Virus record (IMG/VR): IMGVR_UViG_3300042906_001319
Coordinates: 1-28,191 of that record
Reading direction: 5' to 3' (one strand)
Source: a virus
Length of the DNA: 28,191 bases
The position numbers were made by a program, and so were the translations under genes. The notes below the pieces were generated by a model, which had not been told where the DNA came from, searched no databases, and saw only the letters and a list, made by a program, of their open reading frames with translations. Of the stretch, positions 15,852 through 25,896 are shown in pieces (positions within the stretch are counted from its first letter, which is position 1; every line of letters starts with the position of its first letter).

Positions 15852-16435
15852 AAATAATTTTTTTAGACCATGATGGTGTTATCTGTCTATCCTCAGAATG
15901 GGGTGGTCGTTTTAATAAACAGAAGAAGTGGGGTGGTCGTAAATTATCTACGACTAACTTAGAGATTCCTATCGAATACCGTTTTGATAATTTCAACAAA
16001 AAGGCAATCAAAGTTTTAAATGAAATTTTAGAAGAAACGGGTGCTGAAATTGTTGTATCATCAGACTGGAAACGTTGGGCTAATGTTCATGAGATGGGAG
16101 AATATTACGAGTCTCAAGGTATTATTAATAAACCTATTGATTTTACACCAAATCTAGGTGAATGTACCAATTACGATAAAGATACATTTCCGTGGTCTCG
16201 TCAATGGGATTTAGAACAAACTAGGTCTATTGAAATCAAACAGTACCTACAAAATCATCCTGAAATTACTCATTGGGTTGCAATTGATGACCTTAATATG
16301 GGTAAAACAGGTAAAGTTAATGGTATGGAATTTGAACACGAATGGGGATTGGATAATTTTGTTCTAACACCAAATGGTAACGAAGGTATTAAACAATCAG
16401 GAATTAAAGAAAAAATCCTCCAATTTCTACTTTAA
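15848..16435 (+). CDS. HAD-superfamily phosphatase (SAK RNA-repair type)
   Basis: 195 aa from the ATG at 15848, which forms an ATGA overlap with the previous stop. HAD motifs: the nucleophile and acid Asp7/Asp9 in IIFLDHDGVICLSS, motif II Ser in EIVVSSDWKRW, and acidic motif IV in WVAIDDLNM. The layout (SSDWKRW, then a long helical cap) fits the HAD family associated with Swiss-army-knife RNA repair proteins. It likely removes phosphate from a nucleotide or a nucleic-acid end. A kinase that could be its partner lies at 19380-19781. T4 combines both activities in one protein. Confidence 0.85.
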   Translation: MKIIFLDHDGVICLSSEWGGRFNKQKKWGGRKLSTTNLEIPIEYRFDNFNKKAIKVLNEILEETGAEIVVSSDWKRWANVHEMGEYYESQGIINKPIDFTPNLGECTNYDKDTFPWSRQWDLEQTRSIEIKQYLQNHPEITHWVAIDDLNMGKTGKVNGMEFEHEWGLDNFVLTPNGNEGIKQSGIKEKILQFLL

Positions 16436-16447
16436 GGAGTTGGAGGA
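16416..16447 (+). terminator. Possible weak terminator hairpin
   Basis: TCCTCCAA (16416-16423) pairs with TTGGAGGA (16440-16447) across a 16-nt loop at the 3' end of the HAD gene. Only a short T-poor stretch follows, so termination is uncertain. Confidence 0.35.
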
Positions 16448-16486
16448 GTTTATTCACTTGTTGTATCAATTACATCGGTTGTACTG

Positions 16487-17116
16487 TTAAATCCCTATTT
16501 CACCCAAAAATTCATCCCAATCATCAGTCTCACTAATATAATTTGTTTTATAAATTGCGGAATCATAATCTAAATCTCTAACATCATTATACCACTTTTG
16601 AGCAAATCTATCAACACCATGTTTCACAACCTCTTTATTGATACCTGATAAATCATACCCATCGGTTAAATCACCAACAATTTGGTCTTTAATAGTGTCA
16701 ACAGTTATATCATCACCTTTACCCCAATTTTTCGGTTTTTTAAGACCAAAAAATTGATTATAAGTTTTAATTTTTAATTTTTGATTTTTAATATAATTCC
16801 TTATATAATCTTTTCTATTAAAATCAACTTCCAAGTTGAAATGTTTTGAAAACCACTTATCAAAGATATCTTCAGTGTCATCAAAATTAAACCCAAAAAT
16901 ATTACGTAAAAACCCACTAACATGGTGACTCAGTGTAGGTCTTTTTAATTTTTTATAATAAGTGAAAACTTCATCACCATTTTTCATAAATGAAATTTTA
17001 TCATCGGACTCAATAGGTTCAACACTACCATATTCTTTTGTCAAAAAACGATTGTAAACCAATTCAAATCTTGATTGTTCTAAAATGACTTTTTTTAATA
17101 TTGACGTGAATTTCAT
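16487..17116 (-). CDS. Leader-bearing hypothetical protein
   Basis: 209 aa from the ATG at 17116. The frame stays open to 17191, but the internal start is preferred because it begins with the leader MKFTSILKKVILEQSRF, which ends in the ILEQ seen also at 18343-18846. The body is basic, rich in Lys, Phe and Asn, with no recognised domain (KPTLSHHVSG is written KRPTLSHHVSGFLRNIFGF in full). The leader suggests packaging into the capsid. There is no TATTTAT box just upstream. The gene follows the orphan leader duplicate on the same strand. Confidence 0.6.
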   Translation of the reverse strand: MKFTSILKKVILEQSRFELVYNRFLTKEYGSVEPIESDDKISFMKNGDEVFTYYKKLKRPTLSHHVSGFLRNIFGFNFDDTEDIFDKWFSKHFNLEVDFNRKDYIRNYIKNQKLKIKTYNQFFGLKKPKNWGKGDDITVDTIKDQIVGDLTDGYDLSGINKEVVKHGVDRFAQKWYNDVRDLDYDSAIYKTNYISETDDWDEFLGEIGI

Positions 17117-17180
17117 CTTTGTTATTTTATTACTATAATTATACAATTGTTTGAAAAAGAAAGGAGTCATATAACTAAAA

Positions 17181-17225
17181 CCACCTTTCATCCCACAAAC
17201 TAAAGATTTGTGGGTTTTTCGGTGG
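17181..17225. other. Nested inverted repeat upstream of the gene at 16487-17116
   Basis: CCCACAAA (17192-17199) pairs with TTTGTGGG (17207-17214), enclosed by CCACC (17181-17185) and GGTGG (17221-17225). Five T residues follow the inner stem on the plus strand. It lies where the duplicated leader cassette ends, so it may be a recombination remnant, a terminator or a structured RNA. Confidence 0.45.
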
Positions 17226-17310
17226 AGTTATATAAAATTTGATTTAGTTCTTCAGATAATCTTTTTTCCATAATTATTTTTTCATTACTTGTTGATTTAG
17301 ATTTTGCCAT
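17200..17310 (-). pseudogene. Orphan leader peptide (duplicate of the N-terminus of 17804-18340)
   Basis: A 36-codon frame whose middle, MEKRLSEELNQILY, is identical at DNA and protein level to the start of the gene at 17804-18340. After that it leaves the match and stops (NSTEKPTNL). It has 13 extra N-terminal codons (MAKSKSTSNEKII) and a TATTTATA box (17328-17335) 17 nt upstream. It may be a truncated gene or a leader cassette that lost its cargo. Confidence 0.5.
17230..17281. repeat. 52-bp direct repeat, copy 1
   Basis: Identical over 52 bases to 18299-18350, starting ATATAAAATTTGATTTAG. It encodes the leader MEKRLSEELNQILY on the minus strand. The flanks differ. Confidence 0.9.
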
Positions 17311-17363
17311 TTTTTAACACTTTTTTCTATAAATATATTTGTACATTTTTTTTTGAAAAAAAT

Positions 17364-17394
17364 TTTGTTAGTTTGGAAAAAAAGAGTATCTTTG
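17364..17394 (+). promoter_or_regulatory. Bacteroidota-type promoter
   Basis: TTTG (17364-17367), 19 nt, TATCTTTG (17387-17394): a full match to both elements. The ATG at 17416 is 21 nt downstream. Confidence 0.7.
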
Positions 17395-17415
17395 TATTAC
17401 TAAATAAACAGAATT

Positions 17416-17802
17416 ATGAAAAGAATACTTATATTGTTAGTTTTGATTGTTTTTTCAAAACTACTATTCGGACAAAATGAATCATTACCTGTTGGTGGGT
17501 ATTTTTATGATGGTAAATCTCTTATTGAAAAAGACTCAGTACTGATATCAAAACTCATCGATGTTTTCCATATCGATATTAAAGAATATGAATTGATATC
17601 TATGGATAAAGCGGCGTCTCTAGGGTTATTAGATACTTGTGATTACACTTCTTACTCTCTCACTTTGGATAAGAGAACAAAAGTATCAACTTATAAAACA
17701 AAGGAAATTCATAGAAAAAATCCTAAAAACAATAAATATTTTACGATTTTTTCATTTGATTCTTTTTATGATGAAAAAGTAATCGGTATATTTGTTTTTT
17801 AA
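17416..17802 (+). CDS. Small secreted protein
   Basis: 128 aa. A signal peptide is clear: MKRILILLVLIVFSKLLFGQ with likely cleavage near residue 19-20. The mature part of about 108 residues has two Cys-free halves around SLGLLDTCDYTSYSL and no family I recognise. It would be exported to the periplasm or surface. It is a lone plus-strand gene with its own host-type promoter among minus-strand virion-type genes, which fits an early envelope-modifying or superinfection protein. Confidence 0.7.
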   Translation: MKRILILLVLIVFSKLLFGQNESLPVGGYFYDGKSLIEKDSVLISKLIDVFHIDIKEYELISMDKAASLGLLDTCDYTSYSLTLDKRTKVSTYKTKEIHRKNPKNNKYFTIFSFDSFYDEKVIGIFVF

Positions 17803-17803
17803 T

Positions 17804-18340
17804 TTATGCACTAAGTGGTAAAGGTTTTCCACCAGGGTAAAGTCTAATAAATAAACCATTTTTACCTTTTTTCACAAATGTGTTTGGAGATATAAGACCG
17901 TCTGTTGATTTTTTAAATGACTTATCATTTTCTAATACAGTAATATCCATTTCAGCAATATCACCAGTAAATACCCTAACATTATTGTCTTTAGGGTCTA
18001 TACCAACAAATTTGAATTTTGCGTTAATTTGTATCGGGGATAGACTTGAACGAACAATATTATTGAAGTTTTCAGAAACAATTCCTTGATTTTTAATAAA
18101 ATCACCGTCAACAATCTCATTTGTTTTTGGGTTTACTTTGAATTCTGATACAACACCATTTAATGGGGTCATTTCACCATCTTTATCATATAAATAAAGT
18201 TTTGAATTCTGAATAGTTAACTTGTTCCCAATTAATGAGAAGTATTTTTGAGGTAAGGCTTGTTCACTTATAACAACACCTTTTTTATAATTTGTCAAAT
18301 ATAAAATTTGATTTAGTTCTTCAGATAATCTTTTTTCCAT
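17804..18340 (-). CDS. Leader-bearing hypothetical protein
   Basis: 178 aa from the ATG at 18340 (an upstream ATG at 18370 overlaps the preceding gene). The leader runs MEKRLSEELNQILYLTNYKK and continues GVVISEQALPQ, with the putative cleavage motif ISEQ at about residue 24-27. The body is strand-rich (LIGNKLTIQNSKLYLYDKDG, FKFVGIDPKDNNVRVFTGDI), like a structural or adaptor domain. The start lies 2 nt after the upstream stop, so it is cotranscribed with 18343-18846. The first 14 codons are duplicated at 17230-17281. Confidence 0.6.
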   Translation of the reverse strand: MEKRLSEELNQILYLTNYKKGVVISEQALPQKYFSLIGNKLTIQNSKLYLYDKDGEMTPLNGVVSEFKVNPKTNEIVDGDFIKNQGIVSENFNNIVRSSLSPIQINAKFKFVGIDPKDNNVRVFTGDIAEMDITVLENDKSFKKSTDGLISPNTFVKKGKNGLFIRLYPGGKPLPLSA

Positions 18341-18350
18341 AATTATTTTT
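18299..18350. repeat. 52-bp direct repeat, copy 2
   Basis: Identical to 17230-17281. This copy spans the start codon and first 14 codons of an intact gene and 10 bases before it. Confidence 0.9.
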
Positions 18351-18846
18351 CTTTTATTAAAATTAAACATCTTTTTAAGTACTCTTTTGCTCTTGGTGAC
18401 GGGTCATTGTGTTTTAATACTTTTTCAATATCCCTAACTAATTCTTCACCATGTTCATTCTCTTTATACAATTCGATTACTTTATCCATAGCCTTTAAAC
18501 AACCACTATTAGTCTCATCAAAGTAATTTTTATTTCTGAATTTGTTTAAATGATTCATTAAACCGTAAGATAAATGTTCACCACCGTCTTTAATATCAGG
18601 ATGTAATCTAATTGTTTTTAACATATCCAATGTGTCAACAATTCCGTTTATACCACCATCTCTTTTAGTTAAATTACTTGTGTAGTTTTGAAATTCTTTA
18701 GAAGGACCAACTATCTCGTCTAAAGAAATTATATTTCCAGCAACACATCTCTGTTTCTCTTCTTTTGGTTCAACATTACTTTGTTCCAAAATGTATTCTC
18801 GTATAGATTGACGAAGTTTTTTCTCGTTTATAATATATTTAGGCAT
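18343..18846 (-). CDS. Leader-bearing hypothetical protein
   Basis: 167 aa. The leader is MPKYIINEKKLRQSIREYIL followed by EQ, an amphipathic helix ending in ILEQ. The body is helical and charged with three Cys (RCVAGNII, SGCLKAM, KRCLILIKEK) and no recognised domain. A TATTTATA box lies 17 nt before the start. It is first in a two-gene unit with 17804-18340. The leader suggests packaging into the head. Confidence 0.6.
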   Translation of the reverse strand: MPKYIINEKKLRQSIREYILEQSNVEPKEEKQRCVAGNIISLDEIVGPSKEFQNYTSNLTKRDGGINGIVDTLDMLKTIRLHPDIKDGGEHLSYGLMNHLNKFRNKNYFDETNSGCLKAMDKVIELYKENEHGEELVRDIEKVLKHNDPSPRAKEYLKRCLILIKEK

Positions 18847-24462: not shown

Positions 24463-24471
24463 CTTCGAATA

Positions 24472-24479
24472 TATTTATT
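24472..24479 (+). promoter_or_regulatory. TATTTATT box (plus)
   Basis: TATTTATT with a 12-nt A-rich spacer to the ATG at 24492. This supports that start over the ATG at 24450. Confidence 0.35.
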
Positions 24480-24491
24480 GTAAAATACAAA

Positions 24492-25103
24492 ATGAATCCT
24501 GAGTTAAAAATTGGTGATAGAGTAGTTTTACTTTATATGGAAAATGAAAGTTCTGTTCTTATGGGTGAAAAAGGAACGGTAATTTATAAATCAAATGTTT
24601 TTGGTGATGACCAATATAATATTGAATGGGATAATGGTTCAAAATTGTCGTTATTAAACTGTTGTGATAAATGGGATACTGTTGAAAATTTTGAAAAAAG
24701 AATATTAAACAAAATTAAGAAAAAAGACATCATTGAAAATGATGAGAGTGATTTTAATAAAAAAATGTTAGCGAATATTGATGTTTTTGTTCATTTTAAA
24801 ATGAAATTCTTTCAAAAATATCTAATTATGGTTAGAAACTCAGGAATTATAAATATGTTTGGTGCATCACCTTATTTATATGTTGGAAGACAAAAAATAG
24901 AAGAAGAAATGTCATATAAAGATTTAGAAGGTGAACAATATGACGAAATGTTAGAAAATGCGGATAAGTCTAGAGACTTAATGATTCAAGGTACTGTAAG
25001 TTTTTTGGAAAAAACCGGAAAAGAAGTTAGTGTTGAAAATGTTAAGAGGTTTTTACCAAGATTTGCAACAAAAATAGTTGAGAACTATATGTTTTTATAC
25101 TAA
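24492..25103 (+). CDS. Hypothetical protein with KOW/SH3-like N-terminus
   Basis: 203 aa from the ATG at 24492 (an ATG at 24450 adds 14 residues but abuts the divergent start and lies upstream of the TATTTATT box). Residues 4-55 (LKIGDRVVLLYMENESSVLM, GEKGTVIYKSN, QYNIEWDNGSKLSLL) look like a small barrel found in KOW or mind-bomb-type domains. The rest is helical and unrecognised. It converges on the next gene with a 9-nt overlap of the 3' ends. Confidence 0.6.
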   Translation: MNPELKIGDRVVLLYMENESSVLMGEKGTVIYKSNVFGDDQYNIEWDNGSKLSLLNCCDKWDTVENFEKRILNKIKKKDIIENDESDFNKKMLANIDVFVHFKMKFFQKYLIMVRNSGIINMFGASPYLYVGRQKIEEEMSYKDLEGEQYDEMLENADKSRDLMIQGTVSFLEKTGKEVSVENVKRFLPRFATKIVENYMFLY

Positions 25104-25385: not shown

Positions 25386-25423
25386 AATAACAATTATAAT
25401 TAAAACATTCTATTGAATCAATA

Positions 25424-25431
25424 TATTTATT
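25424..25431 (+). promoter_or_regulatory. TATTTATT box
   Basis: TATTTATT with a 12-nt A-rich spacer before the ATG at 25444, matching 24472 and the endolysin arrangement. It could drive the cluster 25444-28191. Confidence 0.4.
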
Positions 25432-25443
25432 GAAAAAACAATT

Positions 25444-25896
25444 ATGAACTCATATTTTTTCGGAATCACAAAAGAAGAGAAAGAAAACATTCTCGACCAA
25501 CACAAAAAACCATACGATGGTTATGTTACACAATACATTAAACCTGAAGTTCAACCACTTTACGTTCAAGACTTTGCAAATGATAAAGAAGGTTTGACTG
25601 TAAACAATAAAGGTGAAGTTAAACACCACACCTACATGGGTATCAATGAAGACGTTTTTTCCGGCACTAAGTTCGAACCTGAAGTATCTTTTGATGAGGG
25701 TGAAACCGATGAACAATTGGATATGATTGGGGATGGTGATGATGATTTGGAACATGGTACTTTTGATGATGAAGATATTGACTTTTCAGATATTGATGTT
25801 ATTACATTTGATGAAGTGGAAGAAGAAGTTAAGGAACCTTTAAAAGAACAGGTAAATAAGACTTTGGATATGTTCAGAAGATTTAAAAATTATTAA
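25444..25896 (+). CDS. Leader-bearing acidic protein
   Basis: 150 aa. The leader is MNSYFFGITKEEKENILDQH followed by KKPYDGYVT. The middle (about 84-130) is very acidic (DMIGDGDDDLEHGTFDDEDI and on). The C-terminus turns basic and holds another LKEQ within PLKEQVNKTLDMFRRFKNY. It has no known domain. The leader, the acidic low-complexity region and a late-type box suggest a scaffold-like or packaged protein. Confidence 0.6.
   Translation: MNSYFFGITKEEKENILDQHKKPYDGYVTQYIKPEVQPLYVQDFANDKEGLTVNNKGEVKHHTYMGINEDVFSGTKFEPEVSFDEGETDEQLDMIGDGDDDLEHGTFDDEDIDFSDIDVITFDEVEEEVKEPLKEQVNKTLDMFRRFKNY

Follow-up and report, generated by a model that had tools for sequence, protein, structure and literature searches.

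In phage T4, the promoter/stem-loop element (PeSL) is a mobile regulatory cassette whose stem-loop adjoins shuffled gene modules. T4 also marks proteins for the capsid with targeting sequences of 10-20 residues that are removed by a protease, while the propeptide of gp23 is 65 residues long (PMC5694885). The T4 internal proteins are a diverse, injected counter-defence set in which the targeting sequence alone is conserved (PMC3012670). Transposons of the IS200/IS605 family have subterminal hairpins in their left end (LE) and right end (RE) and are described as carrying genes for transposition and its regulation only; ISDra2 inserts at TTGAT and IS608 at TTAC (PMC8612924).

The locus described here lies in a window of 28,191 nucleotides, the whole of the stretch analysed, from a T4-like phage (IMG/VR record IMGVR_UViG_3300042906_001319). 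Within it, a short 5' gene sequence occurs twice, once at the start of an intact gene (copy 2) and once as an orphan (copy 1) beside a hairpin.

The 52-bp repeat and its neighbouring genes

The two copies of the repeat (Table 1) are identical at 52 of 52 bases in an exact-repeat comparison of the window, as the first-pass annotation had claimed. No longer exact repeat is present in the window, and when copy 1 is removed the next longest is 17 bp; in 100 second-order Markov sequences, the longest repeat averaged 16.3 and never exceeded 19. Other samples yielded five further contigs of this virus, and both copies recur exactly in each of them, which makes an assembly artefact unlikely as the source of the repeat. 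The six contigs represent one phage, their shared loci being at least 99.97% identical, and a 61-kb contig of this virus (G002) extends the window. Additional copies of the unit, for which a search had been proposed, are absent from the contigs of the window virus when up to three mismatches are allowed.

What does the repeat contain? It had been called the leader, but this is a misnomer: it comprises 10 bp of upstream sequence and the first 14 codons of a leader gene. The complete leader of homologues has 26-28 residues and ends in VISEQ, and the orphan has the first 14 of these residues. Copy 1 does run into an unrelated TAG stop after nine more codons. These last nine codons of the short chimeric open reading frame are LE sequence, and its tail (YNSTEKPTNL) recurs after the LE junction in contigs L099 and L096; the chimeric frame is probably not functional.

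Table 1. Positions of the features at the locus within the window
Feature	Position	Strand	Remark
Copy 1 of the 52-bp repeat, 10 bp upstream and 14 codons (MEKRLSEELNQILY)	17230..17281	-	cut by transposon left end
Copy 2 of the 52-bp repeat	18299..18350	-	start of intact gene
Intact 178-aa leader gene	17804..18340	-	opened by copy 2
Complete leader of the 178-aa gene, MEKRLSEELNQILYLTNYKKGVVISEQ	18260-18340	-	
TTTAT, IS target motif	17232..17236	-	native to the leader, also in copy 2
Solo LE hairpin, IS200/IS605 family	17173..17231	-	nested inverted repeat of the first-pass annotation, 17181-17225
Short chimeric ORF, MAKSKSTSNEKIIMEKRLSEELNQILY-NSTEKPTNL	17200..17310	-	36 aa from in-frame upstream ATG (17310)
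5'UTR and leader of the neighbour gene (MKFTSILKKVILEQSRFEL)	17060..17143	-	
209-aa leader gene	16487..17116	-	directly inside LE
167-aa gene	18343..18846	-	upstream of copy 2
128-aa gene	17416..17802	+	between the two copies, opposite strand; sequence reading

The 10 bp that precede the start in copy 2 come from the 3' end (GAAAAATAAT) of the 167-aa gene, which has a similar end in the relative L087. The 128-aa gene reads as having a hydrophobic N-terminus and is associated with a promoter-like sequence, TTTTG-N19-TATCTTTG. The leader genes of the window, including the 178-aa gene, have no match in Pfam or PHROGs; the pattern EELN.ILY...NYK was found in the same virus only, and a DNA search of phage records returned one weak match of 72 bases. 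A further motif, AATATATTTAT(T/A)G, stands shortly 5' of several gene starts in the window (24468-24496, 25420-25448 and, on the minus strand, about 17320-17345) and also lies within shared 5'UTRs of other phages; it is likely to be a late promoter of this phage group.

Leaders shared by unrelated genes

The leader of the 178-aa gene belongs to a type with the pattern GY..G..VI.EQ and aligns through VISEQ with leaders of the relatives G014 and L095. A scan of viral contigs with this pattern recovered at least 120 stretches; the listing covers about 80 of these. Among the matches listed, 79 of 80 lie no more than 30 codons from a start, and they comprise 58 distinct N-termini (for example MKKEILSEEINAMKYLLGYKRGVVISEQ) and, by BLAST, 20 families of bodies. 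The GY..G..VI.EQ part is fixed by the search pattern itself, and independent evidence comes only from where the matches lie in the chain, from the residues around the pattern and from the diversity of bodies. The leader can be described as an N-terminal tag of 26-28 residues, one of several types that are reused, together with the 5'UTR, in front of unrelated bodies.

Do leaders and bodies have separate histories, as had been suggested as a check on related phages? In these phages they do: a comparison of 827 genes from five related records gave 126 in-register pairs, involving 94 genes, with similar 5' DNA and bodies without BLASTP similarity; control windows placed inside genes (549 genes) yielded 3 pairs. 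The shared 5' DNA mostly extends from about -30 to between +20 and +75. At the locus itself, the 5'UTR and leader of the 209-aa neighbour are 97.6% identical in DNA to the 5' end of a gene of L016 and L017 that encodes 439 aa and has a different body. The body of the 209-aa neighbour, in turn, recurs in L012, where a different N-terminus precedes it and the joint is at TCAAGATTTGAAT. In the latter contig, 13 bp of common sequence lead into 1.2 kb (L012:6000-7193) that is 99.7% identical to window positions 15882-17075; the join fuses two genes in frame, and the left part of L012 is about 75% similar to the window where aligned. This stretch would be either a recent recombinant or a chimeric assembly.

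The leaders are probably capsid-targeting propeptides. By analogy with the T4 targeting sequences, such a leader would direct its protein into the prohead and would then be removed by the head maturation protease. The 317-kb relative G014 has a head module of T4 type (Peptidase_S77, major head protein, portal and terminase). Near residue 60 of the major head protein stands ENQASFLINE/ASS. The leaders end in the same kind of motif as this FLINE/ASS, and the first 50 residues of proteins show [ILV]xEQ about 2-3 times more often than other positions do. The record of the window contains no head genes, and fragments of its virus of up to 61 kb give no S77 match. The leaders resemble the targeting sequences of the T4 internal proteins and their processing by gp21 (Peptidase_S77) in that a short N-terminal tag ending in [ILV]xE is common to unrelated, fast-changing proteins, with a T4-type protease present in G014. 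Unlike in T4, there are several tag types per genome and dozens of tagged genes, and the tags are 14-28 residues long.

The hairpin beside copy 1 and the origin of the orphan

The nested inverted repeat noticed beside copy 1 does fold (z = -2.5 as RNA and -3.2 as DNA), and comparison with other contigs identifies it as the left end of an IS200/IS605 transposon. Window positions 17173-17236 match the LE of an element in L089 at 64 of 64 bases. The hairpin, of about 60 bp, is dispersed: the same virus has a second copy (G002:47606-47669, 98.4%), and a scan of viral contigs with the hairpin core found 25 stretches. In L083, L084 and L086 it lies 88-100 bp ahead of TnpB, and the TnpB proteins of the first two have OrfB_IS605, Cas12f1-like_TNB and HTH_OrfB domains; across the hairpin-linked elements, Pfam recognised Y1_Tnp and OrfB_IS605/Cas12f1-like_TNB. 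In L089, L093 and L099 the hairpin caps a 2.2-kb element with a reversed Y1 transposase and a forward TnpB, at whose 3' end stands a conserved RE hairpin (CCCAACCATCTTTAGTGGTTGGG). These three elements contain Y1 transposase, TnpB, LE and RE in the layout of IS200/IS605 transposons (PMC8612924). The exact LE core is absent from 84,980 bacterial and archaeal species genomes, and Rfam gave nothing close to the gathering score for the hairpin.

Directly outside the LE stands TTTAT in all 16 distinct left flanks. Copy 2 provides the uninterrupted counterpart of the joint, reading TTTAT/ATTTGAC (the stroke marks the joint) and then the rest of the gene. The final two bases of the repeat, AT, match both LE and gene, which is a coincidence. 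Direct repeats are absent at most flanks of LE elements, L095 having one of 55 bp. No clean empty site was found for the L093 insertion in G008, where the neighbouring genes are not recognisably adjacent. The phage elements resemble ISDra2 and IS608 in their 136-aa Y1 transposase, in a TnpB with OrfB_IS605 and TNB domains, in subterminal LE and RE hairpins, and in inserting on the 3' side of a short fixed target, which is TTTAT in this case. The copy in the window differs from such elements in that it is a solo LE. No RE was found in the window with up to three mismatches allowed, nor by blastn, and tblastn matched neither tnpA nor tnpB there; the LE is therefore a solo remnant and not a complete element.

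How did the orphan copy arise? Most probably it is what remains of a second 178-aa gene, severed by the LE, and its leader would be a reused tag that directs proteins to the prohead. The LE of an IS200/IS605-family transposon joined the second gene copy directly after the TTTAT inside the leader, as the sequence at the joint shows; the remainder of the transposon (RE, tnpA and tnpB) would later have been lost or replaced, and so would the sequence 3' of the cut in the gene. Because the LE starts right after a TTTAT that is also present in the intact copy, the cargo-side edge of the repeat is a transposon junction in mid-leader and not a boundary of the leader. No related genome was found to have an intact second copy of the 178-aa gene, and we infer the former full length of the stump. 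Downstream of the 167-aa gene, L087, G014 and G008 have neither the 178-aa gene nor either copy of the repeat, and so they cannot polarise the duplication. With no RE beside the LE, insertion followed by loss would look the same as a recombination that brought in an already truncated LE; the latter appears less likely, because the native TTTAT sits at the joint, the chance of this motif at a given minus-strand position being 0.0067. Insertion alone does not explain why the common sequence reaches only 10 bp upstream of the start. In copy 2 these 10 bp belong to the end of the 167-aa gene, and L087 has a similar end, which suggests copy 2 as the source of copy 1. A-rich starts of this kind are common, however, and the opposite direction, through a microhomology joint, is possible.

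The first-pass annotation had instead seen a leader moving as a unit; on such a reading, the 52 bp would have been copied whole to a new site and would not yet have acquired a cargo gene. The confinement of perfect identity to 5' sequence and the frequency with which unrelated genes share leaders (126 pairs against 3) would fit such a cassette, but the unit covers just 14 of the roughly 27 residues of a leader, ending ahead of the most conserved part and exactly at the transposon joint after TTTAT. It also has no further copies in the contigs of this virus, all of which makes the proposal very improbable. As a finished mobile leader, the orphan was rejected because the second half of the leader is missing. 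It is conceivable, though rather unlikely, that a broken or one-ended IS605 insertion was mended by phage recombination or repair that copied about 50 bp of flanking DNA, the repeat being then a repair duplication beside the LE. A parallel exists in L095, where the left copy of the 55-bp direct repeat (98%) ends in TTTAT and LE and the right copy follows a truncated element. The geometry is mismatched, however: the uninterrupted copy of L095 lies on the far side of the element, whereas that of the window is found upstream of the LE copy, at a distance of 1069 bp and beyond an unrelated gene. Duplications beside left ends thus recur in L095 and the window, although their arrangement differs. 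The last proposal, that the hairpin is a transcription terminator or a PeSL of T4 type to which the leader was joined by cassette shuffling, is scarcely credible. On the plus strand, the inner stem followed by TTTTT does look like an intrinsic terminator, and, as with the PeSL, a stem-loop adjoins shuffled gene modules. Yet the hairpin follows a fixed TTTAT, and other contigs show it paired with an RE hairpin, TnpA and TnpB, an association on which this reading was rejected; the stem-loop here is a transposon end, while a PeSL is a cassette outside a transposon.

Leader genes within IS200/IS605 elements

In ordinary relatives of the TnpA described above for which a comparable hairpin was detected, the hairpin usually lies 10-30 bp past the tnpA stop; L121, whose hairpin core is identical, is among them. 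Unlike the IS200/IS605 family as described (PMC8612924), a leader gene separates tnpA from LE in several elements of these phages: L103-L106 (in the contigs of L093, L094, L089 and L099), L155/L156 and L157. Here the gap between tnpA and LE is 317-1493 bp. The same arrangement is found in L096, where the contig ends in tnpA, while L155/L156 (on G002) and L157 have a tnpA remnant only. Six distinct cargo genes occur in the order LE, cargo, tnpA. The elements of L089, L099, L093 and L096 have tnpA (or its 3' part), the 5'UTR and about 22 leader codons in common, after which the bodies are unrelated. Together with the 126 pairs of genes that have similar 5' DNA, these elements support the wider idea that leaders and bodies are shuffled.

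The virus of the window has an element with both ends (G002:47609-49401, within L064), composed of LE, a 476-aa leader gene, short ends of tnpA and tnpB, and RE. As only these short ends remain, the element is non-autonomous. Its shared part ends in the 5'UTR, and the 476-aa cargo, which has a central hydrophobic segment and no Pfam or PHROG match, bears another type of leader. Elsewhere in the same virus, the 5' DNA of the gene at G002:59866-60099 is 84% identical to the transposon-borne leader.

On balance, these observations lean towards IS605 elements as vehicles for virion-targeted cargo in these T4-like phages, with leader and 5'UTR as the joint at which bodies are exchanged and with deletion derivatives that persist. 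The elements would be ordered LE, gene body, leader, 5'UTR, tnpA, tnpB and RE. Bodies would be exchanged at leader and 5'UTR by recombination, and deletion derivatives would retain LE, cargo and RE after the transposition genes have gone. Cargo would then move by transposition and reach the capsid. No published description of IS605 elements carrying tagged genes was found in the open-access papers covered, an incomplete collection.

Several other arrangements were observed. The RE side of G002:47609-49401 abuts the start of another leader gene (MKYIIQESKIFDVLQIFVNS). At approximately L101:448-4868, some 4.4 kb with several phage genes but neither tnpA nor tnpB separate an LE from an RE hairpin; a minimal LE-start/RE hairpin of about 50 bp stands at the right end. 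In the stretch L085:5926-6961, LE is followed by DNA from between tnpA and tnpB, a phage gene of 108 aa and a piece of tnpB, which reads as another IS605 element with an inserted phage gene. A gene adjoining LE at L087:516-1706 has the leader MDKILMKEELNRIKELMGLINEQ and a body with VVGSHGS..FFTACKGAD motifs; its product is possibly a protease-like effector.

The orphan repeat itself is ordinary transposon debris. T4-like phages of this kind have many genes with common short 5' tags and unrelated bodies, some of which are carried by IS605 elements, and leader-carrying IS605 transposons may be one of the routes by which tagged genes pass from phage to phage. Should the tags be signals for capsid targeting, a tag-bearing transposon with exchangeable bodies would be a natural mover of virion-packaged proteins, and such proteins would be predictable from sequence by their tag.
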